Shown piece by piece: positions 7,316 to 32,950 of a DNA stretch of 64,000 bases. The stretch's first letter is position 1, and the number at the start of each line of letters is the position of its first letter. Both the position numbers and the translations under genes were made by a program. Source of the stretch: Allomuricauda sp. (lineage in GTDB: Bacteria; Bacteroidota; Bacteroidia; Flavobacteriales; Flavobacteriaceae). The stretch is from positions 372,001 to 436,000 of the forward strand of contig NZ_JANQLX010000003.1 in assembly GCF_028280385.1 (NCBI RefSeq), read 5' to 3'. Under the pieces are notes generated by a model, which saw only the letters and a program-made list of their open reading frames with translations, was not told where the DNA came from and made no database searches.

Positions 7316-10300
7316 TTACTTTTTAATTACTTTAAAAGTCTTGCTACTATCTTTATCGGATGCTTTTATCAGATATAGCCCTGGGCTTAAATGGTCAATA
7401 GCAACCTTTGCCCTTTTGTTGTCCAATTCATATTCTCCTTGATCAATCAGCTGCCCGGCAATAGTAAATATCTCTAGTTGTACTTTATCAGCGGATGGCG
7501 ATGCAGTTCTAATTGTAAAGGCATTTTCTGTAGGATTGGGAAATAACATCAAGGTATCGGATAAATTGGTTGTGAACGTCAATTTGCCCTCACAATTCCG
7601 GTTGGAAGTTACTTCAACCTGATCTTGATCGGATACGGGAATCGTAAATTTGGACGAGGTGTACTGTCCAATTTCCCTATTGTTGATTTTAACGGTGTAC
7701 GGCCCTGTACCTCCTGTAATCTCTAGGTCCATTTGGCTTTGCGCACCGCCTGCCTTTGTAATGACATTTGATTTTCCGCTTAAGCTAATCCCTTCCCTTA
7801 TAACCACTTCATAACAACGCTCGCTGCTCACAGGATCGTCAATATGGGATATGCATAATGTGTAGGTATTAGGAGCAAGATCGGTAATTTCAAGGTTGGT
7901 GGTAAATTGGTGTTCAGCACCATTTATCTTAGCAATAAAGGATCCGGTTTGGTGGCTGCCAACCGTAACACTGCCATTGCTCTTACCGGAACAGGTCTCT
8001 TCTTTTGTGGTTATGGTATAGTTATACGCACCTTCAGGGGAATTTATGATGCTAAAGTTTGTGGATGAAGTGGCCACCATGTTTAGATATATGATCAAGG
8101 TGGTGGTTCCGTCCGTGTCTGTAAATGTTCCTTGTTTGAGGTTGGAAAGAACAGTGCCATTGGCTACGATGGTAACAGGGTCATTACTGGACCAATTTTT
8201 AATTACAAAACATGGATTGTCCAATGGGCGTTCGGTTGACGCATCTGCGGTAAATGATAAACTACTGTTGGAAGCTGTAAGCTGGTAAGCCCTTTGTTCC
8301 AAAATATATGATCCGGTTACATTATTTGTATTGCTCAGGGTTGGGGCATTTTGCCAAGACCTGTACAGTCTTCTCAATGAGGCATCATCCCGGTTGGACA
8401 TGCCTTCTAGTCGTATATTTTTTTTCCATCCTCCGCCAGCAATGCTACCCATTTGATAACCATCTTCGTCCGGAATTGGTTTTAGCATTGCTGTATGACC
8501 GGTCCGGGACCCTCCGGCACTATAATCATCGGAACCCGCTGTTGGTTTCTGACCCACAGGCCAGTGGTTATAACGGTTGAAATCGTTGTATGGCCCAAAG
8601 AACTCCAAATTTGGGGTATCGTATACCATGGTGGGTTTATAGTCGCTGCCGGTAATGTTAATGGTTTGGATTTCTGGTTTGGGCCCTGAATTATGAAGCA
8701 GATCTAGGGTATTCCAATCAAAGGACCAGTCCCAGTTTATTTTGGAGGACTGGTTATAGTTGGTTACTACTTTTTTAAGGTCGCTTGGCAGAATGTCCAA
8801 GGGCATTTCCCCAGGCCCAAGCAAGAGCATGGGTTCTGCCCATTCAACACGTTGCGTGTTGTCGGTGGCCCACCAGATCATTTCATAGGCATTAATGCCA
8901 TCTGGGTAGCAATACATATACCAATCGGACCAATCCCCCCAACCACTCGCGGCATTAAAATGGTTGATGGACTTATCGGGAAAGATTTGGGGATATCTCC
9001 AGTGCACCACCACTCTGGCCGGAGTATTTTCGATGATTCGGGCGTGGCTGTACATATGCTGTTTGTCAGACATTGGCTCGTAGCAACATTCATCGTTGGC
9101 CCCAAAATTTTCATTAAACTCTGAGTTAAATCGGGTTTTAGCCCCATTCGAATGATAGGGGGAGTAGCTGGCACCTTTCCAAAATACGGTCTTAACTGGG
9201 GAGTTGTCATATTCAACCACAATATCAGAATATGGGCCATTCCTGAAGAGTTGATCCCAAGTGTCATAGAACTTTAAATTTTCGTACCGAGCCCCAAAAC
9301 TTCCGGAGGAAGTGCCTTCTGGAACTACCCTGGTCTCCATGTCCACGTTGTCAATAATGGTACTGCCCGGATTAAAGTTGTTGTATGTCTGTAAAATTTG
9401 GGCATCGGTGAGTGCTGAATTATAGATTTTAAATTCATCCATAAGAGCGTCCAAGGTAAAGTGCCATCCAGCATCCGCGATTCCAGAACCTATACTTACA
9501 TCGCTGGTACTCGTTGCCAGAGGGGTGTTGGCGATGGTTTCGTTACCCACAACAGCGCCATTTATATAGGTTTTGGCGGTGCCGGCCGAAGTATTTATGA
9601 CCATGGCCACGTGAACCCATTTTTGCAGGGGTAAAGTGGGGCCTCCAAAAATGTAAGTGACCGTACTGCCTTGCACTATTCTGCCAAATATGTCCCCAAA
9701 TTCATCCACATAAAGACCATAAGAATCATCTGCAACTTCATCATTGATGACGGCATTTCCTTTATGAACAATAGCTTGGTCAATCCATGGAAGGGCACCC
9801 AAGGCTATCCAACCTTCAATTGTAATCGCATCGGAGATGGAAGGGGCATTTGCATTTGGCAAAGTGATATAGTTATTATAACCATCAAGTGCGAAGGCCG
9901 TTCCGGAAATGCCTTTTTTCCAATTCATTTTGTTTCCTTCAAGAGTATGGTTATATCCAGAAGCTGTTTCTGTTATGATATTATTTTGTGCCTCATCGAA
10001 GTTCCACCAGGCAGAAGGGGTGATTACATTCGTTCCAATAACTGGATTGCCTGCCACAGGTCCTGGTGAACCCATCGGACTGCCTATGGAAGTACTTACA
10101 TTGGAGATACCTGTGGGATTAAGGGTGAACGACTGCGTTGTTATGTTTTGCGGGTCTTCCCAATTAACGTAACTGACATCCCCACGTTTGATCGTGCGGT
10201 TTACAGTGCCGTCCGGGAACACGGTAAATACTTCATCCACAATGGACCGATGGTCCACATTTACTTTGGGATTCCCAGCACCAAAGCTTGGCAAATATCG

Positions 10301-10884: not shown

Positions 10885-13071
10885 TTATTTTTGAGCGTCT
10901 ATATCAATTTGTATTGGCGCATCGGATTCTGCTCTGACCCATACGATGAGGTCAACACTGTTCAAGGAGTTTTTGAATCCGTATCTGCCATCTTTGGCAT
11001 TTAAGGCTTCTCCATTTACCTTAATGGAAGAAAGGTTGCGCTGCCCCCAATTTTCAACCACAAAAGCTGGGTTCAGCACAGGGGATTCCTTTGAAGCATC
11101 CAAAGTAATGGCCAAAGAAGGCACCTGATCATCAAGTGCAATGGTGTAGGCTTTTTCTTCCGGCTTGTAATAGGCCTTGGAAGCATTGTCTCCCAATGAA
11201 ATGGCAGCGGGGTTGGACCAGCTTTTGTTTTGCTTGACCACAGTCTCAATATTTTGGTCCGTCATTCCACACAACATGATCTTGGTCATGGAACGATCGG
11301 TTGTTTTATAGGCGTTCCAGAAATAGTGGGACAAGGAAGCATGGGAGCCACGATCCGCCACCATGGCAAATCTACCATCTGTGGGTCTTGTGGCCACTGG
11401 CCAATGGTTCCACCATGGAAAAACACTAATGTTTCTTCGTAGCTCACCTGCATACACATCCATGCTGGCGGGTTGGCCGCCATTGATGCCTCCCGCAATA
11501 TCTTGTGGGCGAAGGGATGAAAAAGGCTTGTATTTTGACTTTGTGTTTACAATCTGATTGGAGATGTTTTGCGGATACGGAGGCCATAAAGGTGGTGCCT
11601 GGTGTTCCCAAGAATAGGTTTTGCTATCGCCATCAATGTTGGATACGGTAAGGGCTTCAAATTCCAATACGCTTTCTGGCCTTTGACCAGGTTCCATGAC
11701 CACCATACTTTCCTGCCATTCGTGTGCAGCGTTGGGGGCATTACTTAGGAGTACGTCCTCGCGAACCGCCGACATGTCAGGATAAATGGTATAGGTTTCG
11801 TTGGTCCAGTCGCCCCAACCCGTTTGTGGGTCTTCAAAGGCGAAATTTCCAACCACATCAACCAATCCGTAGCGCCATTGTACCACCACCCGGGCAGGTG
11901 TACTTTCGATGATCTTTACGCTGGAGTATTTGGTTTTTTTGTCCGACATCGGCTCACAGCTTCCATGGTCATTCCAGCCTTCATTAAATCCATTGTTGAA
12001 GAAAATCCCATTTTCACTTACCCAGCTGGGGATATAACCCGTACCTCTCCAAAACACGAACTTGCAGTCCGTTTCATCAAATTGCACCACAATATCTGCA
12101 TGTTTGTCCACGGCCCATGGGGCATCCCATCCGGGGTAATATTCCAAGGTAGTATTAACTGCTCTAAAAACACCGGGAGATTGTGGCCCGGATGGGAATT
12201 TTCTTTTCGGGAGGGCAGGGGCTCCCAATGCTTTTGATTCCTTTTTATAGGCCGAGGCAATGGTTTTTGCGTCCAAGGCTTTGTTGTATAGTTTTAGTTC
12301 ATCAAGAATCCCATCCAAATAGGTCAATGACTTTTCGGTGCCTTCAGGCCGAATGGTTCCAGTGGGTCTGGCTGCTACCCTGCTTCTACCAATTAATTTT
12401 TCCACATCACCGTGGTAGGTGATAGTTGAAAAAGTACCTTCAAATTTTCTATTGGCAACTTGCTCTCCGTTGATATAAAGAGTCATTCCGCTTGCTGGCG
12501 AATAGGTTCCTGCAACATGGGTCCATTCATTGAGTTCTACCCTTTTATCGCTCATAACGGTCTCCATTTTACCCTCGTAGGTCCCTAGTTTTAAAACCGG
12601 TCTTCCCCAGGAATCCAATTCCAGGCTATAGCCTTCAGTAGAGCCATCGGATAAGGGCCTTCTGTGATTGAATATGGAACAGAAGTTTTTCGGATAGGCA
12701 CCTAGAGCAACCCAGCTTTCCAGGGTGAATTCGGTGAGCTCATCCCGAATGAGGGCATCCGCTTCTTCGTCGAACTCCTCTTCTATATTTACATAAGCCG
12801 TATAGCCATCCAATAAAACGGCATTTCCCTTTACACCGGGAACGCTCTTGTAGTATTTTCCATTTAAATTGTGTTCCTTGCCATTGACTTCGGTAACGTA
12901 GGCAAATACCTCTTTTGGGACATAAGTTTCTCCTCTTTCCAAATTTGCCTTTTGCCGTTCCACCCTGATTTTGTCAAAGTCGAAGTGCTGGATCGGTTTG
13001 TCCTGACTCCAGGAGTAGGTCAAAGAGGTCAGAAATAGCATTAGGGTTAATGCATGGGTTTTAGTTCTCAT
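10885..13071 (-). CDS. LamG protein with single unknown module (LamG B)
   Basis: This 728-residue protein has a Sec signal ending near YSWSQ. A LamG-like beta-sandwich spans about residues 25-285 (LDGYTAYVNIEEEF, TLESWVALGAYP, GTYSPASGMTLYINGEQV, DGILDELKLYNKAL). The unknown module follows at about 300-728: FVFWRGTGYIPSWVSENG, CEPMSDKKTKYSSVKIIES, ARVVVQWRYG, GWGDWTNETYTIYPD, NHWPVATRPTDGR, NPAFVVENWGQR. There is no lipobox and no type IX tail, so it is most likely periplasmic. It lies between the GH29 gene and LamG A on the minus strand, but a gap of 157 bp with its own promoter signals separates it from GH29. No enzyme family was recognised; the abundant W, Y, H, D and R in conserved blocks would suit a glycan-active site. 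Confidence 0.85.
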   Translation of the reverse strand: MRTKTHALTLMLFLTSLTYSWSQDKPIQHFDFDKIRVERQKANLERGETYVPKEVFAYVTEVNGKEHNLNGKYYKSVPGVKGNAVLLDGYTAYVNIEEEFDEEADALIRDELTEFTLESWVALGAYPKNFCSIFNHRRPLSDGSTEGYSLELDSWGRPVLKLGTYEGKMETVMSDKRVELNEWTHVAGTYSPASGMTLYINGEQVANRKFEGTFSTITYHGDVEKLIGRSRVAARPTGTIRPEGTEKSLTYLDGILDELKLYNKALDAKTIASAYKKESKALGAPALPKRKFPSGPQSPGVFRAVNTTLEYYPGWDAPWAVDKHADIVVQFDETDCKFVFWRGTGYIPSWVSENGIFFNNGFNEGWNDHGSCEPMSDKKTKYSSVKIIESTPARVVVQWRYGLVDVVGNFAFEDPQTGWGDWTNETYTIYPDMSAVREDVLLSNAPNAAHEWQESMVVMEPGQRPESVLEFEALTVSNIDGDSKTYSWEHQAPPLWPPYPQNISNQIVNTKSKYKPFSSLRPQDIAGGINGGQPASMDVYAGELRRNISVFPWWNHWPVATRPTDGRFAMVADRGSHASLSHYFWNAYKTTDRSMTKIMLCGMTDQNIETVVKQNKSWSNPAAISLGDNASKAYYKPEEKAYTIALDDQVPSLAITLDASKESPVLNPAFVVENWGQRNLSSIKVNGEALNAKDGRYGFKNSLNSVDLIVWVRAESDAPIQIDIDAQK

Positions 13072-13153
13072 CTTTTTTATTTTTCCAATTACATATAGTT
13101 GTATTCTTTCGGTGCCTTCTTTGTCAAATCATGTTGTTTGTCTGCGCCGTTCC

Positions 13154-13228: not shown

Positions 13229-14840
13229 CTATTTACGAACTATTTTAAGTACATAGGCGTGATCACAAGGACGCTGCATGGGCATTTGCACTTTGAGTCC
13301 CACTGCAGGAATCAACTCCCAGTCCAATGCATTTCCGTCACCGAGCATTGTTATGGAATCAATTTCATCTGGGTAAAGATAGTAGCCCGAAATGTGGCCT
13401 TGTGCATCCTCGTCCAAATCTACATAGCCCCATGCTTTTTTGCCTTCAGTAGCTCCAGAATGGCGGACCAACGATTTGATGGTCACCGATTTTCCTGGCC
13501 AGCCCAAGATAGTGGCATAAAGCACATTGCCCTTAGTGGTGAATCGAATGTCATCTTTTCCAAAATCGGCGCCTTCATCCTCGTCTTCTTCATTGTCCGG
13601 GCCTAGGTCTTTTAAATCGCCTACTACCTCATATTCTTCTTCAGTTTCTTCATGGCCTGGTCCTTCGCCGGATTTGGTCCAGGCCCTTGTACCATAGATG
13701 GCCTCGCCGTTGATTTTTAGCCATTCTCCCATCCCCAATAGGGCATTTTTAGCCTCTTCCGGAATAGTCCCATCCCATTTTGGTCCAATATTTAATAATA
13801 GGTATCCGTTGTTGCTCACCCGGTATACCAAGTTATCGATAAGATTATTTACGGGTTCGTATTCCAAATTGGGTCTATAGCCCCAGGATGGACCGTTGTC
13901 AATGGTGGTGTCCGTGATCCAATCGTAGTGGGTCAGTTTGGAGGCGGCGCCCAATTCCAAATCAAAGAGCCCCACCCCAGGAGGTAGGTCATGGTGCTTG
14001 TATGAAATGATGACCTCTGCGTTGCGATCCAATCCAGAGTTGTAATAATGGGTCACGAAGTCTTTCACATAATCTTCCCGGATAATGTCCAGGGCAAAAT
14101 CGAACCAAACAAAATCAGGTTGATAATTGTCCACAACTTCTATCAACTTTCCTTTCCATTCGTCCATATATTCCTTGGTGGGTACATCCCCTTCCTCATG
14201 TATAGGTCCATAAAGCCCGGAAAACTCCGGATTACTGGCGTCTTTGGTTTTATCCCAAGTGGGGAAGAAGTACCAGTTGGCCGAGTGGTGAAAGGCTGTA
14301 ACGAACTTCATTCCTTTGTTCTTGATCGCTTTGCCCAGCTCGCCCACCACATCTCTTTTGGGTCCCATTTGGGCAGCATTCCATTTGGAGTATTTGGTAT
14401 CCCACATGGCAAAACCATCGTGATGTTCTGCCACGGGCCCCGCGAATTTGGCACCTGATCGGGCGAACAAGTCTGCCCACTCGTCCGCGTTGAAATTCTC
14501 GCCCGTAAATTTTGGAATAAGGTCTTTATAACCAAAATCGGGGGTAAGCTTTCCATGTACCCGTTCAAAGTCCCTGCCCCATTCGCTTTCGGGATTCATA
14601 TAGGCTACGCTGGAGTTCCAGGTAACATTTTCCATTGATCCCGGAATAACAGTAAATCCCCCAATGGGTGTAAATGCCAAACTTTCCGTCCTTCAACCAC
14701 TTTGGGGTTTGATGTTGCGAGAGTGATTCCCACGTAGGTTCATAATAGTTGGCCTGGACCATTTCTTGGCCGTTGGTTTCATTATAATTAAAAAGAGCAA
14801 GGGTTGCCGATAATAGCGCCACTGTGCGGAATATGGTCAT
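13229..14840 (-). pseudogene. GH29 alpha-L-fucosidase interrupted by one frameshift
   Basis: Two overlapping frames together encode one GH29 protein of about 536 residues. The first frame (from ATG at 14840) gives the signal peptide and WLKDGKFGIYTHWG. The second gives VIPGSMENVTW, FAGPVAEHHDGFAMWDTKYS and VWFDFALD, in which the aspartate (codon near 14101) is the expected nucleophile. The shift falls at a run of five C on the plus strand (14658-14662). Four would restore HWGFTVIPGSMENV, the normal GH29 spacing. It may be a homopolymer sequencing error, a true mutation or slippage. An acidic stretch (EETEEEYE, then NEEDEDEG) is inserted before the C-terminal beta domain. The family releases alpha-L-fucose from glycans; the signal puts it in the periplasm or outside. 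Everything else in the gene looks intact, so a recent event or an assembly error is most likely. Confidence 0.88.
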
Positions 14841-16217: not shown

Positions 16218-19200
16218 ATGAAATATATATTAAGATTTAAAAGTGCCCTATTGTTTCTGGGGCTGATGGTTGGGCTACAGTCAAGTGCAATCGCCCAAAA
16301 TACAATTACAGGTACAATTACCGATACTGATGGACAGCCGCTTGCTGGCGCCACGGTGGTTGAGCAATCCACAACCAACGGGGTGGTGGCCGACTTTGAT
16401 GGAAACTATAGTATCGTGGTCGCCAACTCCAATGCGGTATTGACCGTTAGCTTTGTAGGTTTTGTCACCCAAGACATACCTGTGGGGGTAAGAACCACAA
16501 TCAACGTTAGTCTTCAAGCAGATCAAAATGTTTTGGATGAAGTAGTGGTGATCGGTTATGGTAAGCAAAAGAAAAGTTCCTTGACAGGTGCTGTTTCCAT
16601 TATCGATGTAGGAGAAACGGAAAAAAGTCAGTACACCAATATTACCGACCGACTTCAAGGTAGGGCTGCGGGGGTTTCTGTTGTAGCCAATGGTGAGCCT
16701 GGATCAGTTGGTGATATCAGGATTAGGGGTTCTGCTTTCTTTGATGATAATAACCCACTGTACGTGGTAGATGGTGTTATTCTTTCAGGAGCACCTACCA
16801 TCAACCCCAATGATGTGGAGAATATCCAAATTCTTAAAGATGCTTCCTCAGCGGCCATTTACGGTTCGCGTGCGGGTAACGGGGTGATTGTGATCACCAC
16901 TAAAAAGGGACAAAAAGGAAAGCTCCGTGTTAGTGCCAATGTGACCACTGGCTTTCAGCAAATTGCCGAAAAACTGGACGTGACCAATGCCGAAGGTTGG
17001 GCTACAATTGTAAGGGCAGCCTTCGATTCGCCAAATGCCAGTGGACTACAACCTGCCCATGCATTTAATTTGCCAGGTATCGATACGGATTGGCAAAGTG
17101 AAGTCTTTAGGACGGCCACCCTTCAGGATTTTAATGCCAATGTATCTGGTGGAGGAGATCGTTTCACAGTGTTGTTCGGGGTTAACCATACCTATCAAGA
17201 TGGAACCGTTCCAGGACCAAAATTTGATAGATCGGGGATTCGATTGAATTCTTCCTTTGAAGTGATCAAAGACCGTTTGACCGTAGGTCAGAATGTGGCT
17301 TTTAATAGAGTTCGCTTAAGTGGTGGAGCCGAAGAGGACAATGCGGCCTCAGCAGGTCTTGCTGTTCCTACTGCCATAGATGCTCTTCCTGTTATTCCCG
17401 TATTTGATCCAACCAAAATAAGTGGCTATGGTCATGGGGATACCAATAACTTAAGCTTTATGGTCAACCCTATTGGGTATGCTGCCTTATACAAAAACAC
17501 TACTGAGACCCATAACATTTTAGGAAATGTCTACGCCGACTTTACCATTTTTGACGGTTTGAACTACCACTTCAGTTTGGGGATTGAACGAGGGAATAGC
17601 TATAACAAATTGTTTAATCCACGTAACCAGATTCGTCGTACCACATTGATTGGATCGGCCTTGGCTGTGGATGATTCAAAGGATCAGACTACCTATATTG
17701 AACATAGGCTTACCTATGAGAAAACCTTTGGCAAGCACACCTTTTCACTTATGGGGGCATTCAATGATTTGGAGGAAACCTCTTTCGGTACCTCAATAGC
17801 ATTCGATAATTCCCTCAATGCTTTTGAAGCAGGTTTGTTTGAAGTCTCGGCAGCGACACCTCAAGGAACTGGAATCCCAACCGTGGGAAGCAGCAGGTCA
17901 ACAGTGGCGACGCACTCATTACTATCAAGATTTACCTATGACTTTGATGATCGATATCTGTTAAAGGCCTCCGTTCGTCGTGATAGTTATTCCGTATTTC
18001 TTGGCGAAAACAGAGATGATGTATTTCCTTCTCTTGATATAGGTTGGAACGTGCATAACGAAGCCTTCTTTAACGTTGAAGCCATTTCCCAGTTAAAGCT
18101 TAGGGCTGCCTATGGAGAAGTAGGAAATAATGATGCCGGGGACAATCCGTATATCGGAACTACAGGAATTTCCCAAGGTGCTGGAGGACCCAACTATAAC
18201 CTAGGTCCAACAGGAACCGCAGCAGCGGGCGCAACACGGGATGCCGCATTGGGGAACCCGGATTTGACCTGGGCCAGGGTAAGTGAGTACAACTTTGGTG
18301 TGGACTTGGAAATGTTCAACGGAAAGTTGGCCTTTGAAGGAAACTACTACTTTGGGGAGGTCGAAAATTTGTTGGCCGATGTTCCTGTTCCCGCTTCCGC
18401 CGGTATCGGCTTCGGGGCCCAAATCAGGTTGAACGCGGTTACCAATGAACGTAAAGGTTGGGAAACTGCGCTTACGTATAGAAAACTTGACGGGGATTTT
18501 ACCTATAGCATCAGTGCCAATGCATTTGCTACAGAGACTTCTGTAAAAAGTGTGCCTGCTGGCTTTACCGGGATTCAAGGAAGTTCCATAACCACCGTGG
18601 GTTCGCCTAGGGCAAGGTTGTTTGTTTGGGACTATCAGGGTCTATATACTGCGGAAGATATTGCTGCCCTGCCAGCAGGTTTCGTGGTAGGTGAGTTTGA
18701 ACCTATAGTTGGCGATGCCAAATACAGGGATGTGAACGGTGACAACATTATTGATCAGAATGATAGGGTAGCTGTGGGGAACACCTTGCCGACTGTCAAC
18801 TTTGGATTAAATCTCACGGCAGCATATAAGAATTGGGATTTCACAGCATTCTTTTCCGGATTGTTCGGTAGGGATGTGTTGAACGAGCCCATCCGTGGAC
18901 TACATTCTGACATTGCGAGCAATTACCCAGCCAATTACAATCCATACATCAACGGGGTTGGCACCTATCCAAGACCGCAGACTGCCGGAGATCATGGGAA
19001 TTACGCGGCAAGTACCCTGTATGTGGAGGACGGAAGTTTTGTTAAGCTGAGAAACCTGCAGATTGGCTATTCGGTGCCGTGGAAAGACGTAGATAATTTA
19101 AGATTGTTTATTTCCGGACAAAACTTGTTCACATGGACCAACTTCACAAGCATAGAGCCTGAATTTGAAGGAGGCTTCTTTACAGCAGGTGAAGCCGAAC

Positions 19201-19253
19201 TGGGGTATCCAGTGGTTCGATCTATAGCGTTAGGTTTAAATGTTTCTTTATAA
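16218..19253 (+). CDS. SusC-like TonB-dependent outer-membrane transporter (pair 1)
   Basis: This 1011-residue protein has a Sec signal, then a carboxypeptidase-like regulatory domain (TITGTITDTDGQPLAGATV...FVGFVTQ, about 30-105). The plug follows, with DEVVVIGYGKQKKSSLTGAV and the LYVVDGVILSG...DASSAAIYGSRAGNGVIVITTKKG signature. The C-terminal beta-barrel ends LGLNVSL. It imports oligosaccharides across the outer membrane using TonB energy together with the SusD lid encoded 4 bp downstream. No STN domain precedes the regulatory domain, so direct FecR/sigma signalling is not expected. The substrate is inferred from the fucosidases on both sides to be a fucose-containing oligosaccharide. Confidence 0.97.
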   Translation: MKYILRFKSALLFLGLMVGLQSSAIAQNTITGTITDTDGQPLAGATVVEQSTTNGVVADFDGNYSIVVANSNAVLTVSFVGFVTQDIPVGVRTTINVSLQADQNVLDEVVVIGYGKQKKSSLTGAVSIIDVGETEKSQYTNITDRLQGRAAGVSVVANGEPGSVGDIRIRGSAFFDDNNPLYVVDGVILSGAPTINPNDVENIQILKDASSAAIYGSRAGNGVIVITTKKGQKGKLRVSANVTTGFQQIAEKLDVTNAEGWATIVRAAFDSPNASGLQPAHAFNLPGIDTDWQSEVFRTATLQDFNANVSGGGDRFTVLFGVNHTYQDGTVPGPKFDRSGIRLNSSFEVIKDRLTVGQNVAFNRVRLSGGAEEDNAASAGLAVPTAIDALPVIPVFDPTKISGYGHGDTNNLSFMVNPIGYAALYKNTTETHNILGNVYADFTIFDGLNYHFSLGIERGNSYNKLFNPRNQIRRTTLIGSALAVDDSKDQTTYIEHRLTYEKTFGKHTFSLMGAFNDLEETSFGTSIAFDNSLNAFEAGLFEVSAATPQGTGIPTVGSSRSTVATHSLLSRFTYDFDDRYLLKASVRRDSYSVFLGENRDDVFPSLDIGWNVHNEAFFNVEAISQLKLRAAYGEVGNNDAGDNPYIGTTGISQGAGGPNYNLGPTGTAAAGATRDAALGNPDLTWARVSEYNFGVDLEMFNGKLAFEGNYYFGEVENLLADVPVPASAGIGFGAQIRLNAVTNERKGWETALTYRKLDGDFTYSISANAFATETSVKSVPAGFTGIQGSSITTVGSPRARLFVWDYQGLYTAEDIAALPAGFVVGEFEPIVGDAKYRDVNGDNIIDQNDRVAVGNTLPTVNFGLNLTAAYKNWDFTAFFSGLFGRDVLNEPIRGLHSDIASNYPANYNPYINGVGTYPRPQTAGDHGNYAASTLYVEDGSFVKLRNLQIGYSVPWKDVDNLRLFISGQNLFTWTNFTSIEPEFEGGFFTAGEAELGYPVVRSIALGLNVSL

Positions 19254-19257
19254 AAAA

Positions 19258-23354: not shown

Positions 23355-23385
23355 CAAAATAAAATTTACAAAAGCCATCCATAGC

Positions 23386-24768
23386 ATGAAATACAGCAAA
23401 AATTGCGTTTGCAGCGTAGTGGTCTTCCTTGCTCTAGCTTTCACACAGCTTGGGGCCCAGGATTTCCAAAACACCCAGGAAAGGGTTCAATTGGAAGATG
23501 GGGACACCTTTGTTTTTATCGGAAATAGTATAACCCACCAATGCGCTTATACTCAGTATGTAGAAGATTTTTTCTATACCAGGTATCCTGATAAAAAGCT
23601 CAGTATTGTGAATGCCGGGGTTTCAGGAGACTTCGCGGAGGATGTCCTTCAACGTTTAGAAGAAGATGTGCTACAGCACCAACCCAAATATGCCAGTATA
23701 CTCATTGGGATGAACGATGGGGAATATGTACGATGGAACGATACCATTTTCAATACCTATAAACGGGACATGCTGGATCTAACCCAAAAGCTGGTGGATG
23801 CCAAGGTAAAGCCTTTACTGCTTACCCCTACTATTTTTGATACCCATCAAGCTCTGCTCGGGGAAAATTGGGTGGATAAGGTAGAGATACCCAATATGCA
23901 TTACGATGCTGTTCTCGCGTATTTTGGAGCTTGGTGCCTGGAGCAGGCCAACCTGCAGGGTTATGGTTATGCAGATTTGCATGGATATCTTACCCATTAC
24001 ACCCGTGAGGCAAGAAAAAAAGATGCCAATTTTACCTTTATCCCTGATGCGGTGCACCCAGAGTATGATGGCCAATTGATTATGGCGGTTGCCTTATTGG
24101 AGGGTATGGGAGTGGATACCATGGTCTCAGAAATTGAAGTGGACAAAAGAGCGGGACATTGGAAATATGCCTCTAAAAATGGTGCCATAAGCAACGGAAA
24201 AACGGATATGGTTGAGTTCGATTTTAAAGCAAACGCCTTGCCTTGGGTAGTACCGGCAGATGCCCAATATGCATTTGATTTGACCAATGCAGGTTCCAGA
24301 TTGGGGGCAGAGATCATCCGTGTGGTTGGATTGGAATATGGGGATTACCATGTAATCATAGACAACATTACTGTTGGGACCTATTCCCATATGGACCTTG
24401 CCAAGGGAGTGGAGTTGCAAAACAACCCAAGAGCACCCCAATATCAACAAGCATTAAAGGTGGCCGAGCTCAATAAGCAACGAAATGAAGAGGTGATCGA
24501 GAAAATCAGGGATGAATGGTTGTTGAGAAAAGGACTGGCTAACCCTGAGATGATGGAAGAAGAGGAGGAAGAGGAAGACCTCTCCGGGGACCCCGAGCAT
24601 CAGCGCTACTTGCGGTTAAGGGAGATGGGATATGAACGTTATGTCCAGGATGAATTTTCCAAAATCATCCAGGAATTGGAGTCCGAATCCAAAAAGATGG
24701 TTGATGACATCTACAAGATAAATCAACCCAAAACACGTCATTATTCAATTGTGCGTGTGGAAAACTAA
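23386..24768 (+). CDS. Exported SGNH/GDSL hydrolase with C-terminal extension
   Basis: About 460 residues from ATG 23386. The frame is open further upstream, but that part overlaps the GH95 gene, and the signal peptide (MKYSKNCVCSVVVFLALAF...LGAQ) starts at 23386. SGNH blocks are FIGNSITHQ, a glycine in NAGVSGD, LIGMNDGEY (Asn) and DAVHPEYDGQ (Asp and His). The family hydrolyses esters, often acetyl groups on glycans. After the about 240-residue catalytic core there is a beta-rich part and an alpha-helical tail with a run of seven glutamates (MMEEEEEEED, codons near 24550-24579). This tail is not typical of the family. It is the last gene before a strong terminator. Confidence 0.88.
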   Translation: MKYSKNCVCSVVVFLALAFTQLGAQDFQNTQERVQLEDGDTFVFIGNSITHQCAYTQYVEDFFYTRYPDKKLSIVNAGVSGDFAEDVLQRLEEDVLQHQPKYASILIGMNDGEYVRWNDTIFNTYKRDMLDLTQKLVDAKVKPLLLTPTIFDTHQALLGENWVDKVEIPNMHYDAVLAYFGAWCLEQANLQGYGYADLHGYLTHYTREARKKDANFTFIPDAVHPEYDGQLIMAVALLEGMGVDTMVSEIEVDKRAGHWKYASKNGAISNGKTDMVEFDFKANALPWVVPADAQYAFDLTNAGSRLGAEIIRVVGLEYGDYHVIIDNITVGTYSHMDLAKGVELQNNPRAPQYQQALKVAELNKQRNEEVIEKIRDEWLLRKGLANPEMMEEEEEEEDLSGDPEHQRYLRLREMGYERYVQDEFSKIIQELESESKKMVDDIYKINQPKTRHYSIVRVEN

Positions 24769-25930: not shown

Positions 25931-28009
25931 ATGAAAGTAAGTACGCTGTTGTTTGTTCCCATTCTTGTACTGTCCAATTGTGTATCACTTGTAGCACAAA
26001 ATATCCAAAATGAAGGCATTGCCTACTGGGCTTTTGATGATTTGGCTACCCCGGGGACCAAGGACATGGTTTCCGGTTATTTGGATCAAATTGACGGCCA
26101 CTACAAATCGGTTGCCGGGGTGGTGGGTAAAGCCATTAAATGTGACGGATTTACCACATCTATTGTTCGGGACGAGGAAGAGGCACCTGTCATATCAGGG
26201 CCCTTTACCATAGAGGCATGGGTCGCACCCCAAGCCTATCCGTGGAATTGGTCCGCTATCTATAATCAAGAATATAAAAAGCAAAGAGGTATTTTCTTTG
26301 GGATTGATGGTGAAGGCCGTGTTGGGCTGCATGCCGCGGTGGCCCGTCAATGGCGGGAATGCATCAGCACAGCAACCATACCTTTTATGGAATGGTCCCA
26401 TATCGCTGCCACATTTGATCCAGAGGATGGTATGAAAGTGTATATCAATGGGGAGCTATCCGGGAATCTACAAGTACAGGGAGATTTGCTATACGATCGG
26501 GAATTTCCAATGCAAATTGCAAGAAACCATCAACCTTCGCCACCCTCTTCACTTAACAGGGCAGGCTTTGTAAATGTTCCGGCAAAATTCTCTTTTGATG
26601 GTATCATTGATGAGCTGAAAATTTGGAATAAGGTTTTGACGGGAGACGAACTGAACGGGAATTACCAAAAATTCAAACCTTCGGATGCTCCTCAGTTAAC
26701 ATGGAGAAAGCTCCCAGAGATACAGTTGGATGATGCAGCATTTGGAGCTTTCTACACCAAACTAAAGTACGATGAAGATTGGGATCGACTCTGGAGGGAT
26801 GACCGGTACCCGGACATAGTAGTGACTTTTGACAAAAAAAAGCATTCCATGGTGTTTTGGAAAGGGACCAATTACAATATGAACCTGGTTACCGAAAATG
26901 GGAAATGGATTGCTGATCAGAGCGCGGAAACATTTGGTGAATTTGGTTGTATGGAACATATGTCCGACAAGCAGAATCGATACAGCCATGTACGGGTCAT
27001 TGAAAACAACAAGGCGCGTGTGGTGGTTCACTGGCGCTATGCCCTTACGGATATCAACTATACCATTGCCAATACAGATCCTGTGACCAACTGGGGGGAT
27101 TGGGCCGATGAGTACTACTACATTTATCCGGATGGATACGCCATAAGACACTATCGTATTCACGGTATGGACGATGGCTATAGCATAACGGAACCAGCCT
27201 TGCTTTCAAATCCGGGGGAACGACCAGAGGACAATATTGATATGGTTGCCGTAACCTTGGCCAATGTCAATGGGGAAACCAGTAGCCATTCCTTTGAGAC
27301 CTGGCCTTCTGATCAATTACAGGGAGGAAGATTCAAGCATTCGATAGATGATGAGGTTCTTTCGGTTATCAATGTTAAGTCGAACACAAAGCCTTTTTTT
27401 ATTTATGAGGAACCTGGAGGTATTGGTCCCTATGGTGGGGGGCGTAAGGAAATTGACTATCGTCTTTCCAAATTCCACTGGAGAAACCATTGGCCAGTAA
27501 GCCAAATTCCCAGTGATGGTAGATTTGTGCTTGCAAATGACCGTGTGACCAGTTCTGCAATCACATCGCCCCTGGCTGGTATGCAACGAGAAAATGAGGG
27601 AGGGGCCTTGGAAGGGCGTTTTGTCTTAGGCCTCAGTGATGGCTCGATGGAAGATTTGGTTCAGTTCGCAAAATTTTGGTTGAATACTCCAGAAATTGCT
27701 CTATCGGATGATTCCTTTAGCTATGAAGGCTTTAGCCGAAATGATCGGGCATATCATATGACCCGTAATTCCCGAACAGCTGAAATGGTCCAAATGGAGA
27801 TCGCTGCTGATGCCCAGGCCCCGCTTGTAAATCCTGTTTTTATAATTCATAATTGGGGAGATGCCGCACCTAGTATAAGCTTGGATGAAGAAGTGCTCCC
27901 ATCAGAAAAGTTCAGGTATGCCATACGAAATACACTGGAATCCAGAGACCTTATCCTATGGTTTGATTTAGCTCTTGACAAGAAGACAAAGTTGGTGCTG
28001 TCTAAGTAA
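25931..28009 (+). CDS. LamG protein with single unknown module (LamG C)
   Basis: About 692 residues from ATG 25931, chosen because MKVSTLLFVPILVLSNCVS...VAQ is a good signal peptide; the frame is open to 25865. The cysteine in SNCVS could be a lipobox, but the AQ cleavage site is equally likely. LamG spans about 25-245 (IAYWAFDDLATPGT, IEAWVAPQAYPWNW, ATFDPEDGMKVYINGEL, DGIIDELKIWNKVL). The unknown module follows: MVFWKGTNYNMNLVTENG, CMEHMSDKQNRYSHVRVIEN, ARVVVHWRY, NWGDWADEYYYIYPDG, NHWPVSQIPSDGR, NPVFIIHNWG. This is one of four relatives in the window. It is probably periplasmic. It lies 42 bp before an aldo/keto reductase. Confidence 0.85.
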   Translation: MKVSTLLFVPILVLSNCVSLVAQNIQNEGIAYWAFDDLATPGTKDMVSGYLDQIDGHYKSVAGVVGKAIKCDGFTTSIVRDEEEAPVISGPFTIEAWVAPQAYPWNWSAIYNQEYKKQRGIFFGIDGEGRVGLHAAVARQWRECISTATIPFMEWSHIAATFDPEDGMKVYINGELSGNLQVQGDLLYDREFPMQIARNHQPSPPSSLNRAGFVNVPAKFSFDGIIDELKIWNKVLTGDELNGNYQKFKPSDAPQLTWRKLPEIQLDDAAFGAFYTKLKYDEDWDRLWRDDRYPDIVVTFDKKKHSMVFWKGTNYNMNLVTENGKWIADQSAETFGEFGCMEHMSDKQNRYSHVRVIENNKARVVVHWRYALTDINYTIANTDPVTNWGDWADEYYYIYPDGYAIRHYRIHGMDDGYSITEPALLSNPGERPEDNIDMVAVTLANVNGETSSHSFETWPSDQLQGGRFKHSIDDEVLSVINVKSNTKPFFIYEEPGGIGPYGGGRKEIDYRLSKFHWRNHWPVSQIPSDGRFVLANDRVTSSAITSPLAGMQRENEGGALEGRFVLGLSDGSMEDLVQFAKFWLNTPEIALSDDSFSYEGFSRNDRAYHMTRNSRTAEMVQMEIAADAQAPLVNPVFIIHNWGDAAPSISLDEEVLPSEKFRYAIRNTLESRDLILWFDLALDKKTKLVLSK

Positions 28010-28050: not shown

Positions 28051-29034
28051 ATGAACGCTAGAAAGTTAGGGAAGAACGGATTTGATGTTACCGAAATTGG
28101 TCTAGGGTGTTGGCAACTTGGAGGCAAAAATTGGGGGACTCAAATGGACGATGGCGCGGCTATGGAAATTCTACAAGCAGCGGTTGATAATGGCATTCGC
28201 TTTTTTGATACGGCTGATGAATATGGGGAGGGCCAAAGTGAATTGTTGATTGGCAAATTCCTGAGGACTTCAAATGCTAATATCAAAGTGGCCACCAAAT
28301 TTGGAAAATCTGTTCGCGTAGGGAATAATTTCAATGAACAAATTCTTCGTGAATCCGTGGAAGGTTCTGCAGATCGTCTCGGGATGAAGACTCTGGATTT
28401 ACTGCAGCTTCATTGTGTCCCCAAGGCAATACTCGAGGATGGAGAGATTTTTGACTGGTTACGAACATTGCGTAAAGAAGGTAAGATTACCCATTTTGGG
28501 GCCAGTGTGGAAAGTGTTGAGGAGGCCATGATTTGCCTTGAGCAGGAGGGCTTGCTTGCTCTGCAGGTAATTTATAATATTTTTAGACAAAAAGTCACAT
28601 CAGAACTACTGCCCAAGGCCCAATCTAAAGGAGTTGGAATTATTGTAAGGTTGCCTTTGGCCAGTGGGCTTTTGACCGGAAAGTTTAAAAAAGACACTCG
28701 GTTCGCTGAAACCGATCATAGAAACTTCAACCAAGGCGGGAAATTTTTTAATGCTGGGGAAACTTTTGCGGGACTTCCTTTTGAAAAGGGCGTTGAACTT
28801 GCCAATAAAATCAAAGCGTTTTGTCCTGCAGAAATGACAATGGCGCAACTGGCTTTGCGGTGGATCTTGGAGCATGAAGCAGTTTCCACGGTAATTCCTG
28901 GTTCCAGTTCCCCAGAGCAGGCAGCGGCCAATGCCAGAGTAAGTGGTTTAGATCCTTTATCCGATGAATTGATGGATTCATTGAAGATTTTTTATAGGAA
29001 TGAAGTTCACAACTTTATACAAGGGGTATACTGA
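28051..29034 (+). CDS. Aldo/keto reductase
   Basis: This 327-residue cytoplasmic protein fits a full-length AKR TIM barrel. The catalytic tetrad is visible: Asp and Tyr in RFFDTADEYGEG, Lys in KVATKFGK and His in LLQLHCVP. The NADP-binding end reads TVIPGSSSPEQAAAN. The family reduces carbonyls or oxidises sugars with NAD(P). It could oxidise a released aldose or reduce a 3-keto-sugar, but no substrate can be read from sequence. It follows LamG C by 42 bp and converges on the phosphotriesterase-like gene. Confidence 0.92.
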   Translation: MNARKLGKNGFDVTEIGLGCWQLGGKNWGTQMDDGAAMEILQAAVDNGIRFFDTADEYGEGQSELLIGKFLRTSNANIKVATKFGKSVRVGNNFNEQILRESVEGSADRLGMKTLDLLQLHCVPKAILEDGEIFDWLRTLRKEGKITHFGASVESVEEAMICLEQEGLLALQVIYNIFRQKVTSELLPKAQSKGVGIIVRLPLASGLLTGKFKKDTRFAETDHRNFNQGGKFFNAGETFAGLPFEKGVELANKIKAFCPAEMTMAQLALRWILEHEAVSTVIPGSSSPEQAAANARVSGLDPLSDELMDSLKIFYRNEVHNFIQGVY

Positions 29035-29147: not shown

Positions 29148-30164
29148 TTAATCTAACTGGTAGTTTCTGATTTGTATCGCAAATGCCTTTGAGGGATTGA
29201 CAGACATCAATACATTAAACTCTTCATCCGTGAAGCCCCGCGATTTAAGCGCTGGGTAGAGCTTTTCAAATATGGCGGTATAGGGTTGAATGGATTGTTC
29301 TTCTTTTTGTGGATCGTACCAGCCAGCGTCATGGGAAATTAAAATCCTGTCCAGGATGCCATTTGATTTGGCGAATAGAATTTTCTCAACATGATTTTCC
29401 AGTTCCCAGCCTAAGCCATCCAGACTTATCCAGCATCCCATTTTTGCTGCTTTGAGATAGCTGTTGTTATTGTTTTCCTCTTGGGCATGTACCCAAATAA
29501 AGGCTTCTGGAGAGACGCCCTTTTCCTTTAGAATCTTTAACTGTGGCCATAATCCTTTTGCTTTTCCCGTATGGGAAGCTATGGTTAATCCTGTTTTTAA
29601 ATGGGTAAGCGCTGCGGCCTCAACTAATTTTTGATGGGAAGGACTTAGGCTTTTGGAGTTATCAATGCTGATTTTTATAAAGCCCGGTTTTATTGAAGTT
29701 CCTTCTATGCCATGCGTATACTCTTTGGTCCACATGTTGGCAAGGTCTTCAGCCGAACTTTCTTTGACGTAATCTGGGAGAAATTTATCTTTTTGTGCGC
29801 CATATAAGCCTGTATTGGTAAGGATTTTTAGACCACTTTTAGTTGCAATTTTTTCTAGAAGAACTACATCTCTTCCCAGGTAATTGGGCGTGGCATCTAC
29901 AAAATATGTTACATGGTGATCTTTAAGTACTTCAAGATATGGTAGTACAGCAGCCATTATTTCCTCATGGTCCCAGCCGGCTGGTTGAATTTTTTTTGCC
30001 CCTATAAAATCAACCAAGATATGTTCGTGGGATAACCATATTTGATTTTGAACTACTTGATGGGATTCCTTTACATCTTGGATTGTCACCTGACTTTTGG
30101 AAGTGGTACATCCAAAAATTATGGTCAAGAAGAGGAGTATGTATGTTTTTTGCTTTTTTGACAT
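29148..30164 (-). CDS. Phosphotriesterase-family hydrolase (lactonase-like), lipoprotein
   Basis: This 338-residue protein has a lipobox (IIFGCTTS, Cys about 19), which puts an amidohydrolase fold outside the cytoplasm. Metal-site elements are all present: HEH in WLSHEHILVD, a lysine in GFIKISID (the usual carbamylated residue), histidines in LTIASHTGKA and IWVHAQEE, and aspartate in LISHDAGWY. Most characterised relatives are lactonases or phosphotriesterases, and sugar lactones are plausible here. The start lies 32 bp after the LamG D stop on the same strand, with a stem-loop in between, so co-transcription is likely. A periplasmic lactonase would fit oxidation of sugars outside the cell. 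Confidence 0.88.
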   Translation of the reverse strand: MSKKQKTYILLFLTIIFGCTTSKSQVTIQDVKESHQVVQNQIWLSHEHILVDFIGAKKIQPAGWDHEEIMAAVLPYLEVLKDHHVTYFVDATPNYLGRDVVLLEKIATKSGLKILTNTGLYGAQKDKFLPDYVKESSAEDLANMWTKEYTHGIEGTSIKPGFIKISIDNSKSLSPSHQKLVEAAALTHLKTGLTIASHTGKAKGLWPQLKILKEKGVSPEAFIWVHAQEENNNNSYLKAAKMGCWISLDGLGWELENHVEKILFAKSNGILDRILISHDAGWYDPQKEEQSIQPYTAIFEKLYPALKSRGFTDEEFNVLMSVNPSKAFAIQIRNYQLD

Positions 30165-30190: not shown

Positions 30191-30208
30191 TCAGCCCTAA
30201 GGGGCTGA
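30191..30208. promoter_or_regulatory. Stem-loop at the LamG D stop codon
   Basis: Arms TCAGCCC (30191-30197) and GGGCTGA (30202-30208) pair perfectly around a 4-base loop. The structure overlaps the stop codon of LamG D and lies just upstream of the phosphotriesterase-like gene. There is no T run, so it is more likely to affect mRNA stability or translation of the downstream gene than to terminate. Confidence 0.5.
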
Positions 30209-32950
30209 TATGCTCACATTAACAGCGGTACTTGCTGTGTGTTTCAACCAAATCACCAACCTTTTTTTGCCATTGGCGTCTCTTTCAATGCCACTTTTAA
30301 TGTCTCCTGAAAAGGACTGGCCATTAATGGAAATTTTTGCATCATCGCTCCAATTGGAGATGACAAATGCCGGGTTCACTACGGGTTGTTCTTCAGAGGC
30401 ATTGATGGTAAAACTGATTTCTTCCGCAGCGGCATTTATCAAAAATGCCTTTTGTTCCTTGGAATACTTCACGGATGTAGCTCCTTGCACTTGCGTAACT
30501 GGTGGAGGTAGTTTCCAGGATCGTGCCAACGGAATTAGGGACTCAACACTTTGGTTGGTCATCCCATGCAATACCATGGCACCCACAGATGGAATGAAGT
30601 CATTTGCTCCAAGCGCAAAATGCCCGATACGATCATTGCCGATAGCGTACCTGCCATCAGAGGGCAGCAAATTAACCGGCCAATGGTTCCAAGGACCGGC
30701 AAATGGGTCATCGGTGTAGTTTGAATTCTCCGCTAGTCCCCATGGGGTAATATACCCACCTTGGAAAACCTCAAATGTTTTGTATTCAGACTTGGTCTTG
30801 ACAAGCTCTATGGATGCATCATGAATTTGGACAAATGGGGTTTTGTTGGGTAATTGCCATTGTAGTTTTTGTACATCGCCATTGAGATTGGCCACGTCCA
30901 TGGCATTTAAACCTACCAAATCAAGAGCTTTGACTCCGGGTGAAAGTAGGATTTGAACATCTTGAAATCCTGGTCCTGCAGCGCCTATGTTTTCTTCTGT
31001 CCAAGTGTCATTTTCTGGGTGGTAATAGGTGTCCCGGTATTCCGCCATGGTTTCTCCCCAAGCCATAGTGGCCAACGAAAACTCGGATAATTCTTCTTCA
31101 CCCTCTTCTTCCTCATCTTCGTCCACCGCAAAGGTATCTTCATCATCCGTTTCCGGTAATCCCCTACCATTAAAGTTTACCTTCCGAACGGCGGTGCCAT
31201 CGGGGTAGATATAATAGTACTCATCAGACCAATTGGTCTCATCATTGTTATTGATATAGCCCACGTCAATGCAGGGATATTTCCAATGGATAATTGCCCG
31301 TGCCGGATTGTTCTCAATAATTCGCGCATAACTCTGTCGATTCTGTTTGTCGGCCATATGTTCCGAACACCCATGGGGTCCCCAGGTCTCGGTGCTTTGG
31401 TCCGCCATCCAGATATTGTTGTCGCTGATCCAGTTGGAGGCATAATTGGTCCCGTGCCAAAACTTTACGGACCCTTTTACATCGTCAAACTCCACCGCAA
31501 TATCCGGACTTTCCACGTTTCTCCAGAGGTTGTCCCAAAGCGCATTGCTGAGGGTCAAATTTGTATAGTAAGCACCAAATTTCCCAGTTTCGCTTTGTCC
31601 TGGTAAAACACTCAAAGCTAAGCTGGAAGTAAAGTCTTCCGGTTTGGTTTGGTCGAATAGATGGGTAAAGGTATCAGCGTCCAAGGCGGAATCGAAAATA
31701 GCCAGCTCGTCAATTAACCCCTGAAATCCAATGAAGTAATCAATGTTTTCAGCATTGGTCCTGACAAAGTCCGAACCTCTGTCCAGCTCATTGTTCATCC
31801 CAATTTGGATGGGAGCGTCAATGAATTCAATTGGATTTTTCAAGGTTTTGGAGACTTCAACTTTTCCATTTATGGATAATTCAATGGTAGCGTTGTTAAC
31901 AGAAACACCAATAAATGACCATTTTCCAAAATCCACTTTGGAATTGGATTTGGTTTCTTCCCCATTAACGGTGAAAATGATGTGTCCATAGGGGTCCAGA
32001 CCAAGGTAGAATCCTTCTTTTCCCCAACCCTTGGATTGATGGATAATAGGTGCTTTGTTATAGGGATAGGCATCTGGCGCAATCCAGCTGCTAATTGAAA
32101 AAGTGTTGCCAATTTCAGGAACTTTTTCTTTAGCCAATGAAAGGGAGGTATAATAGCCGTCGAAGGCCAAGGCGGTCCCGGAAATACCTTTTTCGTAATG
32201 GGTGGAAACACCTTTGATGGGGCAGTTTGTTTGGGTAACTGCTTCCATAACAAAATCTTCATGTGGTTGCATCCCATCATCAAAGTTCCAGCTCAAAAGG
32301 GGAGAGGTAGGAGTCGTTTTCAAAACTGGGTTGCCATCAAAAGCTGGTCTGGGATAAATGGGTGCCGATTTTCCGTTTTGCAATTCCCCGTGCGTGATAC
32401 CGTTATGCTCCAGTTGAATTTCTTGGACGGACCCGAAGTCAGGATGTACCCAATCCTCGTATCGGGTACCTTCCGCATTTTTAACGTGTCGGGTAATATG
32501 GTAGTCTTTGCCAATGATGAAAATCTCATGAACTACATTGGTGATGCCGCCAGTATACAAAGGATCTTCATCTATACTGGCAAAAAGTCCAGAAAGCTTT
32601 GGACGATGTGTATAGTGTACAACAATTTTATCATCACTTTCCTCCAATAACCGCACATAGGAGTATCTTGATTTTTCATCAGTTTCGCGATCGGGAAATA
32701 AGTCCTGAACCGGATAACTATAGTCTCCTACTCTCCAAATGGGAGCATACGCATTTTCCAACCTAAACTCTAGTTGACCCGCATCAAGTTTTACAATAAG
32801 GTCTTCATAGCGATGGTGGGCTTTATCGGAATTTCTCAAGCTGGTGTGATAGGCAAAGAATTCAGTGCTCGGTGTGGGTTTGCTGTTGATTTTGCAGGAT
32901 GACAAGCTTGCAATGGCAAAAAGAACCATCCAAATACTATTTCTGGACAT
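30197..32950 (-). CDS. LamG lipoprotein with duplicated unknown module (LamG D)
   Basis: This 917-residue protein has lipobox SLSSC (Cys19). Order: short module copy (about 30-190: YEDLIVKLD, SRYSYVRLLEE, KIVVHYTHR), LamG (about 215-430: LLSWNFDDG, FSISSWIAPDAYP, GLIDELAIFDSAL) and a full module copy (about 455-917: VKFWHGTNYASNWISDNN, CSEHMADKQNRQSYARIIENN, WSDEYYYIYPDG, NHWPVNLLPSDGR, NPAFVISNWSD). An acidic run (DEDEEEEGEEE, residues about 600-620, codons 31091-31153) interrupts the module right after IYPDG. It has the same arrangement as LamG A but a lipid anchor in place of the type IX tail. Function unknown. It lies downstream of the SusC/SusD pair 2 but has its own promoter and follows a terminator. 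Confidence 0.86.
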   Translation of the reverse strand: MSRNSIWMVLFAIASLSSCKINSKPTPSTEFFAYHTSLRNSDKAHHRYEDLIVKLDAGQLEFRLENAYAPIWRVGDYSYPVQDLFPDRETDEKSRYSYVRLLEESDDKIVVHYTHRPKLSGLFASIDEDPLYTGGITNVVHEIFIIGKDYHITRHVKNAEGTRYEDWVHPDFGSVQEIQLEHNGITHGELQNGKSAPIYPRPAFDGNPVLKTTPTSPLLSWNFDDGMQPHEDFVMEAVTQTNCPIKGVSTHYEKGISGTALAFDGYYTSLSLAKEKVPEIGNTFSISSWIAPDAYPYNKAPIIHQSKGWGKEGFYLGLDPYGHIIFTVNGEETKSNSKVDFGKWSFIGVSVNNATIELSINGKVEVSKTLKNPIEFIDAPIQIGMNNELDRGSDFVRTNAENIDYFIGFQGLIDELAIFDSALDADTFTHLFDQTKPEDFTSSLALSVLPGQSETGKFGAYYTNLTLSNALWDNLWRNVESPDIAVEFDDVKGSVKFWHGTNYASNWISDNNIWMADQSTETWGPHGCSEHMADKQNRQSYARIIENNPARAIIHWKYPCIDVGYINNNDETNWSDEYYYIYPDGTAVRKVNFNGRGLPETDDEDTFAVDEDEEEEGEEELSEFSLATMAWGETMAEYRDTYYHPENDTWTEENIGAAGPGFQDVQILLSPGVKALDLVGLNAMDVANLNGDVQKLQWQLPNKTPFVQIHDASIELVKTKSEYKTFEVFQGGYITPWGLAENSNYTDDPFAGPWNHWPVNLLPSDGRYAIGNDRIGHFALGANDFIPSVGAMVLHGMTNQSVESLIPLARSWKLPPPVTQVQGATSVKYSKEQKAFLINAAAEEISFTINASEEQPVVNPAFVISNWSDDAKISINGQSFSGDIKSGIERDANGKKRLVIWLKHTASTAVNVSISAP

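Follow-up and report, generated by a model that had tools for sequence, protein, structure and literature searches.

Fucose-rich sulfated glycans decay slowly, are thought to store marine carbon, and have a bacterial degradation that two reports describe as poorly understood (PMC12786026, PMC7896085). Among the enzymes that act on such chains, the GH174 enzymes covered by a recent review are reported to act on sea-cucumber fucan, and D119, E120 and E218 are given there as key residues of Fun174A (PMC11943901). The GH107 fucanases Fda1 and Fda2 are reported to carry two C-terminal LamG domains which are dispensable for activity (PMC6267234). Here, we describe a protein module which is found beside LamG domains and fucosidase genes, and which we rate as a new family of a known fold class. 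Its function is discussed in the light of a predicted structure, of residue conservation and of the genes that surround it in other bacteria.

The module proteins and their locus

The window, i.e., the whole stretch of DNA that was analysed, comprises 64,000 nucleotides of an Allomuricauda genome. Four of its open reading frames (P0001 to P0004) had been described in a first-pass annotation as LamG proteins with a common module, and this was borne out: LamG was found in each (PF13385, E 1.3e-16 to 1.2e-22), the sequence motifs listed for the module are present in all four, and many of the motif residues are conserved across 105 distant rows. The module measures about 430 residues, rather than the 400 or so first estimated. 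In BLASTP comparisons, P0003 matched P0001 (E 5e-69), P0004 (8e-72) and P0002 (7e-104); the match to P0004 is in two pieces, the better one spanning LamG and the start of the module and the other (5e-22) the remainder of it. The frame of P0003 opens at 25865, and the start assigned to it earlier, 25931, is the second ATG, yet the likelier one since the database protein has 692 residues. The four proteins and their parts are as follows, with residues numbered as in P0003 where positions are compared.

7316..10654, minus strand: P0001, with a signal peptide (by eye), an N-terminal half module, LamG, a full module, an SprB-like stretch (profile score below the cut-off) and a T9SS type A sorting tail
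8042..9322, minus strand: full module of P0001, with W at position 416, like 4/4 of its clade
9395..9886, minus strand: LamG of P0001 (PF13385, E 2.1e-22)
10190..10594, minus strand: half module of P0001, residues 21-155 (half-profile i-E 7e-27; BLASTP E 2e-18)
10885..13071, minus strand: P0002, with a signal peptide (by eye), LamG and a full module
10894..12192, minus strand: full module of P0002, with Q at position 389 and N at 415
25931..28009, plus strand: P0003, with a signal peptide (by eye), LamG and a full module (model md2d5551a6927)
26717..28006, plus strand: full module of P0003, the reference for alignment A2 and for model m19a490051d78
30197..32950, minus strand: P0004, with a lipoprotein-like signal (by eye), a weak partial half module, LamG and a full module
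30203..31603, minus strand: full module of P0004, with an acidic insert

A fifth full copy (G000:C10:357022-358950) lies 13 kb before the window; it gives no Pfam LamG match and carries an insert inside the module. The source genome therefore holds five full copies, besides the half module of P0001 and the weak one of P0004 (residues 90-156, i-E 7e-5). Directly ahead of the fifth copy is a G8 and CEMIP-like beta-helix protein with a T9SS tail (L091:1663-4992), a candidate depolymerase of the same locus. Half modules occur more widely: in 9 of 116 module ORFs, from planctomycetes, a spartobacterium, Caldisericaceae and Flagellimonas, one stands some 250-340 residues ahead of the full module, and the gap was checked for LamG in P0001 and P0004. 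A tenth ORF with two matches (L037) was set aside, as it contains a single module matched in two pieces.

The sulfatase, the two fucosidase families and the two SusC/SusD pairs named earlier around the modules were confirmed by profile, with the GH29 gene found to be split between frames. The neighbouring genes are listed below.

46..750, plus strand: zinc alcohol dehydrogenase of a sugar cassette, in one BLAST cluster with L041:11974-13014 (Pfam ADH_N and ADH_zinc_N); its 5' part lies beyond the window edge
785..1945, plus strand: iron alcohol dehydrogenase of the sugar cassette (PF00465, E 5.6e-54)
2069..3313, plus strand: ROK-family regulator, by profile match
3324..4832, plus strand: sulfatase (PF00884, E 6.7e-54)
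13229..14680, minus strand: GH29 alpha-L-fucosidase beside P0002 (PF01120, E 4.1e-75)
16218..20778, plus strand: SusC/SusD pair 1, by profile match
20949..23354, plus strand: GH95 protein (249.5 bits, versus 575-602 for three others in the genome)
23191..24768, plus strand: GDSL-like esterase, by profile match
28051..29034, plus strand: aldo/keto reductase after P0003 (PF00248, E 1.5e-61)
29148..30164, minus strand: phosphotriesterase-family protein beside P0004 (PF02126, E 4.5e-48)
33230..37985, minus strand: SusD/SusC pair 2, by profile match

The first 50 or so profile positions of the GH29 gene fall in another frame of the minus strand, at about 14634-14765, and the split across 13229-14765 reflects either decay or an assembly error. 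A GH29 of Flagellimonas algicola (G001:C7:342357-343421), less than 3 kb from a module, is a near end-to-end match in a single frame. The GDSL-like esterase probably starts later than its ORF, since the latter overlaps the GH95 gene. By its position, the phosphotriesterase-family protein could be the sugar lactonase supplied elsewhere as AmidoH. PfkB and SSS genes lie just before the zinc and iron dehydrogenases of the window, so that ROK, PfkB, SSS, ZnADH and FeADH precede the modules in the source genome, across the window edge.

Several further observations concern the same stretch. The GH95 proteins near modules in F. algicola and Seonamhaeicola score similarly low (241 and 239 bits), and a distinct GH95 subgroup may accompany the module. 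An L-ribulokinase and an AraD-type L-ribulose-5-phosphate 4-epimerase, both over NCBIfam cut-offs, adjoin SusC/SusD pair 2 (38511-40881), and the glycan may therefore also contain L-arabinose. At 5620-7247 and 41800-57657, xylose-isomerase-like TIM barrels, 3-keto-disaccharide hydrolase domains, ThuA and a GFO/IDH oxidoreductase look like a pathway for the oxidative cleavage of 3-keto-glycosides.

Family status, predicted fold and module types

The first-pass annotation could not place the module in a known CAZyme family, and no named family was found for it in Pfam, NCBIfam or the sequences of the PDB. Inside the modules of the four window proteins, no Pfam match over cut-off and no NCBIfam match was found, and membership in a family of either library was rejected on this ground. 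Alignment A2 contains 104 of 112 module matches, 8 being too incomplete; Pfam gave no credible match over these rows, only four stray ones in one row each (best E 0.014), and a profile of the 104 rows searched against PDB sequences up to E 10 returned two chance matches, neither of them GH174. In addition, searches of open PMC papers, preprints excluded, found no description of the module family, which underlies its rating as new.

The structure prediction and fold search proposed as a check gave a confident model of the module (pLDDT 94.5, pTM 0.94). The predicted fold falls among the galactose-mutarotase-like beta-supersandwiches, and the model shows the supersandwich expected of the galactose mutarotase-like superfamily. 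Near-equal matches were obtained to GH38, PL8, PL26, LacZ and the endo-fucanase family GH174, with Foldseek TM-scores to the listed PDB chains of only 0.28-0.36 by query length, and galactose mutarotases are also among the matches (1nsm, E 3.6e-5). The supersandwich is an accessory domain in LacZ, GH38 and PL8, and PL4 is a lyase with a supersandwich catalytic domain; PL4, which may still be related, was not among the fold matches listed. A viral fold library returned weak matches only to the module, and the search with full-length P0003 was filled by LamG matches, mostly to clostridial toxin binding domains, and is uninformative on the module.

Conservation was counted over 105 rows, i.e., the 104 of A2 and the fifth copy. 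The polar positions E355, R385, W332 and H542 never change (105/105). E364 and D368 are kept in 104 rows, E380, D317, W306 and Y421 in 103, D423 in 102, D415 in 100, E416 and H389 in 99 each, and Y392 in 98. The emphasis placed at first sight on conserved His and Arg thus stands for H542 and R385, and has to be extended to E355, E364 and D368, which are just as conserved. K369, part of the MSDK motif noted earlier, is kept in only 66 rows. The active site of galactose mutarotase (aldose 1-epimerase) consists of two histidines and a glutamate; the module offers one invariant histidine candidate (H542) and one near-invariant (H389), the latter replaced by Q in P0002 and in two rows of other groups.

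The copies of the source genome occupy five separate groups of a quick maximum-likelihood tree, the placement of P0001 being less sure because of its long branch. Five copies stand in tandem in the planctomycete locus L020, with GH29 and a sodium-solute symporter after them, and four of the five group with P0001, P0002, P0003 and the fifth copy. The two copies of L017 both belong to the P0003 type. For none of 53 copies from 21 multi-copy loci is the nearest row in the same locus, and recent local duplication was rejected for this reason. On the alignment and tree, the co-located copies come out as ancient paralogs, two types of which have their own changes at otherwise conserved positions: W replaces E416 in the four rows of the P0001 type and in no others, as N replaces D423 in the three rows of the fifth-copy type and in no others. 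Such a set of distinct types maintained side by side suits enzymes, or binders, that each deal with a separate part of one glycan.

Spread of the family and nearness to fucosidase genes

In a set of 5.8 billion proteins, clustered relatives with E up to 0.001 number 1764 for the P0003 module and 2515 for the fifth copy, the two sets overlapping. Among the best 120 relatives of each search, the names are LamG domain-containing, concanavalin A-like lectin or hypothetical protein. LamG is joined to the module in most P0003 homologs listed (best 120 of 1764), and 62 of the 120 best relatives of the fifth copy have 450-515 residues and no Pfam domain, from which it follows that the module can stand alone. 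A genome scan, of which the best 80 of 300 places were retained, yielded 74 loci, mostly from metagenome bins, in Planctomycetota, Verrucomicrobiota, Bacteroidota, Acidobacteriota, Aminicenantota, Ignavibacteriota, Caldisericota, Myxococcota and unplaced groups. The locus nearest to the window is that of F. algicola (93% identical). Among 199 genomes of the source family, drawn as one per species, the source genome alone has the module; F. algicola and a Seonamhaeicola bin, which have it too, lie outside this draw. Beyond these two, the rows closest to the P0003 module come from planctomycetes and Caldisericaceae. These sequence relationships are most simply explained by transfer between phyla, though they do not prove it. 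Planctomycetes also show large expansions, with 43 module matches in the 4.4 Mb genome of Sedimentisphaerales bin PL25a_bin.123 (G004; e.g., L013 and L095) and 21 and 19 in two others; none of the three GH95 domains of that bin is near its listed modules.

The module lies near GH95 and GH29 genes far more often than expected by chance. For these counts, 42 of the 74 loci, mostly long ones, were taken, corresponding to 38 genomes. Distances were measured from start to start, within 5 or 10 kb plus one module length, and expectations were calculated from rounded genome sizes. The choice of the first 26 genomes was made with the neighbour labels already known, and the other 12 were added later, for GH95 only; in the 26, the module places are 98 listed of about 140 matches. 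Across all 38 genomes, 18 of 131 GH95 domains lie less than 5 kb from a module (0.94 expected). This is the figure to be used, because the excess is weaker in the 12 left-out genomes (4/89, with 0.62 expected, an excess of about 6-fold reached in 347 of 100000 shuffles) than in the first 26 (14/42, with 0.32 expected, in 13 of the 23 genomes having GH95), where the prior view of labels may explain the stronger excess. Seven of the 14 near GH95 domains of the first set belong to Aminicenantes-type genomes, most with one shared operon, and when the eight genomes of this type are removed the count becomes 7/31 (0.24 expected). For GH29, 22 of 148 domains in the 26 genomes lie within the same 5 kb (1.59 expected), in 11 of the 26; a fused protein with three GH29 domains (L096) raises the domain count and leaves the genome count as it is. 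All of these statistics come from genomes related to one another, and fused domains are part of the GH29 counts.

Generic clustering with any glycosidase was rejected on the basis of controls in the 26 genomes: GH43 gave 1/22 (0.26 expected), GH2 0/82 (0.70 expected) and GH78 a slightly high 2/53 (0.35 expected), reached in 4714 of 100000 shuffles. Since modules are near GH95 and GH29, but not GH2 or GH43 and barely GH78, the fucoidans, ulvans and arabinogalactans initially listed as substrates can be narrowed to fucose-containing glycans. By BLAST labels, GH29 or GH95 occurs in 24 and sulfatase in 21 of 75 loci (the 74 and the window). The remaining 51, many on short contigs, have neither fucosidase label; the labels come from BLAST clusters, which miss divergent members.

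A sugar cassette recurs as well, with at least two of SSS, PfkB, FeADH, ZnADH and AmidoH in 20 of the 75 loci. The order ROK-SSS-PfkB-FeADH-module-ZnADH, then GH95, is repeated in the Aminicenantes loci L035, L041, L044, L054 and L056, in three of which a 752-residue ORF intervenes (an S9 peptidase in L041). SSS occurs with AmidoH in five acidobacterial and verrucomicrobial loci, four of which also have ZnADH. For the three AmidoH proteins scanned, the best match is to L-fucono-1,5-lactonase (E 1e-84 to 3e-87), with scores that do not reach the curated cut-off. The cassette and this L-fuconolactonase-like AmidoH point to L-fucose, or a closely related sugar such as L-galactose, as the probable product. 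Single loci show further partners. The module operon of L041 includes an S9 peptidase, an ornithine cyclodeaminase family protein and a serine dehydratase (13029-20679), as if a glycopeptide were the food. In a Bacteroidales bin, a BT_1020-like beta-propeller protein with a sialidase-like CBM comes directly before the module (L032:7566-9461). In a Phycisphaerae locus, GH78 and GH106 alpha-L-rhamnosidases are found beside modules (L077:4796-7705, 16782-19559), so that not all loci can be for fucose only.

Proposed role and comparison with known systems

The earlier proposal of a glycan-cleaving or glycan-binding activity stands as far as a carbohydrate role is concerned, for which the predicted fold, a fusion with a GDSL-like domain and the nearness to GH95 and GH29 speak. 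The reading that we prefer, at a little short of an even chance, is that this unnamed family with its predicted supersandwich hydrolyses glycosidic bonds in fucose-rich glycans. Locus L039 favours the view that the modules themselves do the cutting: three modules, two sulfatase ORFs and the sugar cassette occur there in 22 kb with no annotated glycosidase, one 235-residue ORF being unscanned, and the nearest GH95 of the genome is more than 30 kb from the modules. The one ORF that joins a GDSL-like domain, LamG and the module favours this view as well. In such a system, the secreted module proteins would dock on the glycan with LamG as a binding or presenting domain, and the supersandwich core would cut bonds by means of some of E355, E364, D368, R385 and H542, each module type taking a different linkage or decoration. 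The targets would be sulfated and acylated fucose-rich chains, from which sulfatase and GDSL esterase would strip the decorations and GH29 and GH95 would trim fucose; SusC/SusD and the sodium-solute symporter would import the products, and the ZnADH/FeADH/PfkB or AKR/lactonase genes would burn the released deoxy sugar. Several findings weigh against a hydrolase: the fold matches are near-equal across unrelated activities, no sequence match to any enzyme was obtained, and GH29 and GH95 already remove fucose, so that the target of the module could be a different bond, or its role one of binding only. The rhamnosidases of L077 and the L-ribulokinase and AraD genes of the window weigh against fucose-only glycans. 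A bolder form of the proposal, possible but doubtful, would make the module a new GH family with a lone beta-supersandwich core, in which at least five anciently diverged types each cut a different fucosyl linkage, as part of a kit with GH29, GH95, sulfatases and the deoxy-sugar cassette that has been passed among at least eight phyla.

It is unlikely that the module is instead a glycan-binding or presenting domain which, with LamG, anchors fucose-rich glycans on the cell surface for GH29, GH95 and sulfatases. Such a domain would be consistent with the presence of LamG in all four window proteins and in most of the P0003 homologs listed, with the half modules, which exist as extra units, and with the accessory role of the supersandwich in several of the nearest fold matches. 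The expansion to 43 module matches in one genome is better explained by an enzyme, and the near-invariant E355, R385, H542, E364 and D368 are residues of catalytic type. Fda1 and Fda2 of GH107 are reported to be active without LamG, which makes binding domains common companions (PMC6267234), but the 62 short fifth-copy homologs without any Pfam domain and the lack of an annotated glycosidase around the three modules of L039, as scanned, both argue against a purely binding function. A polysaccharide lyase that relies on His, Tyr and Arg, as other lyases do, and eliminates at a uronic acid within a fucose-rich chain (e.g., fucoglucuronomannan) is distinctly less credible. It would account for the invariant H542 and R385 and for the well-kept Y392 and Y421, PL8 and PL26 are among the nearest fold matches, and fucoidan lyases are reported to exist (FdlA, a beta-helix; PMC9410043). 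Yet a scan of 67 proteins from the window and from module neighbourhoods revealed no GH88, GH105 or PL, the invariant acids E355, E364 and D368 would be left unexplained, and a lysine base at K369 is unlikely given its poor conservation.

The module might also be a divergent member of a classified CAZy family, e.g., GH174, or of a recent family absent from the libraries searched, which were Pfam, NCBIfam and PDB sequences and did not include CAZy's own profiles. The fold match to GH174 extends over most of the length of those chains, which are reported to act on fucan (PMC11943901), but the 104-row profile recovers none of them among PDB sequences, and no listed homolog bears a name other than LamG domain-containing, concanavalin A-like lectin or hypothetical protein; we hold this to be very unlikely. 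Least of all would we expect a mutarotase or epimerase-like enzyme working on released sugars rather than on chains. The galactose mutarotases among the Foldseek matches and the sugar oxidation genes nearby would be consistent with it, but the secreted-looking architecture coupled to LamG and T9SS is at odds with such a role, and several divergent co-located types with residues differing at conserved positions would be unexpected.

A family of thousands of clustered sequences, named at best for LamG, sits in fucosidase loci across many phyla. If the preferred hydrolase reading is right and the module cleaves, the tools for fucose-rich glycans would gain a fold class and several specificities, and CAZyme counts would change for planctomycetes, acidobacteria and aminicenantes. 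The type-specific residues are directly testable as mutants.

Among described enzymes, the GH174 endo-1,3-fucanases (9k1g, Fun174Sb; 8jd7) resemble the module in its predicted supersandwich core, over about 250 aligned residues, and in the fucose context. They differ from it in that no sequence match was found in a search of PDB chains, and remote kinship is possible; where the GH174 key residues lie along the chain was judged too unreliable a guide to a putative catalytic pair in the module. In GH38, LacZ and PL8, the supersandwich belongs to a larger enzyme in which another part carries out catalysis. Unlike the supersandwich domains of GH38, GH2 (LacZ) and PL8, the module stands alone or with LamG. 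The alpha-L-fucosidases of GH95 and GH29 share the loci, and probably the glycans, of the module, but their folds, an (alpha/alpha)6 barrel and a TIM barrel, respectively, differ from its predicted beta-supersandwich. The GH107 fucanases likewise have a catalytic fold other than that of the module. In their reported architecture, Fda1 and Fda2 resemble the module proteins in having LamG beside a fucan-acting core (PMC6267234).
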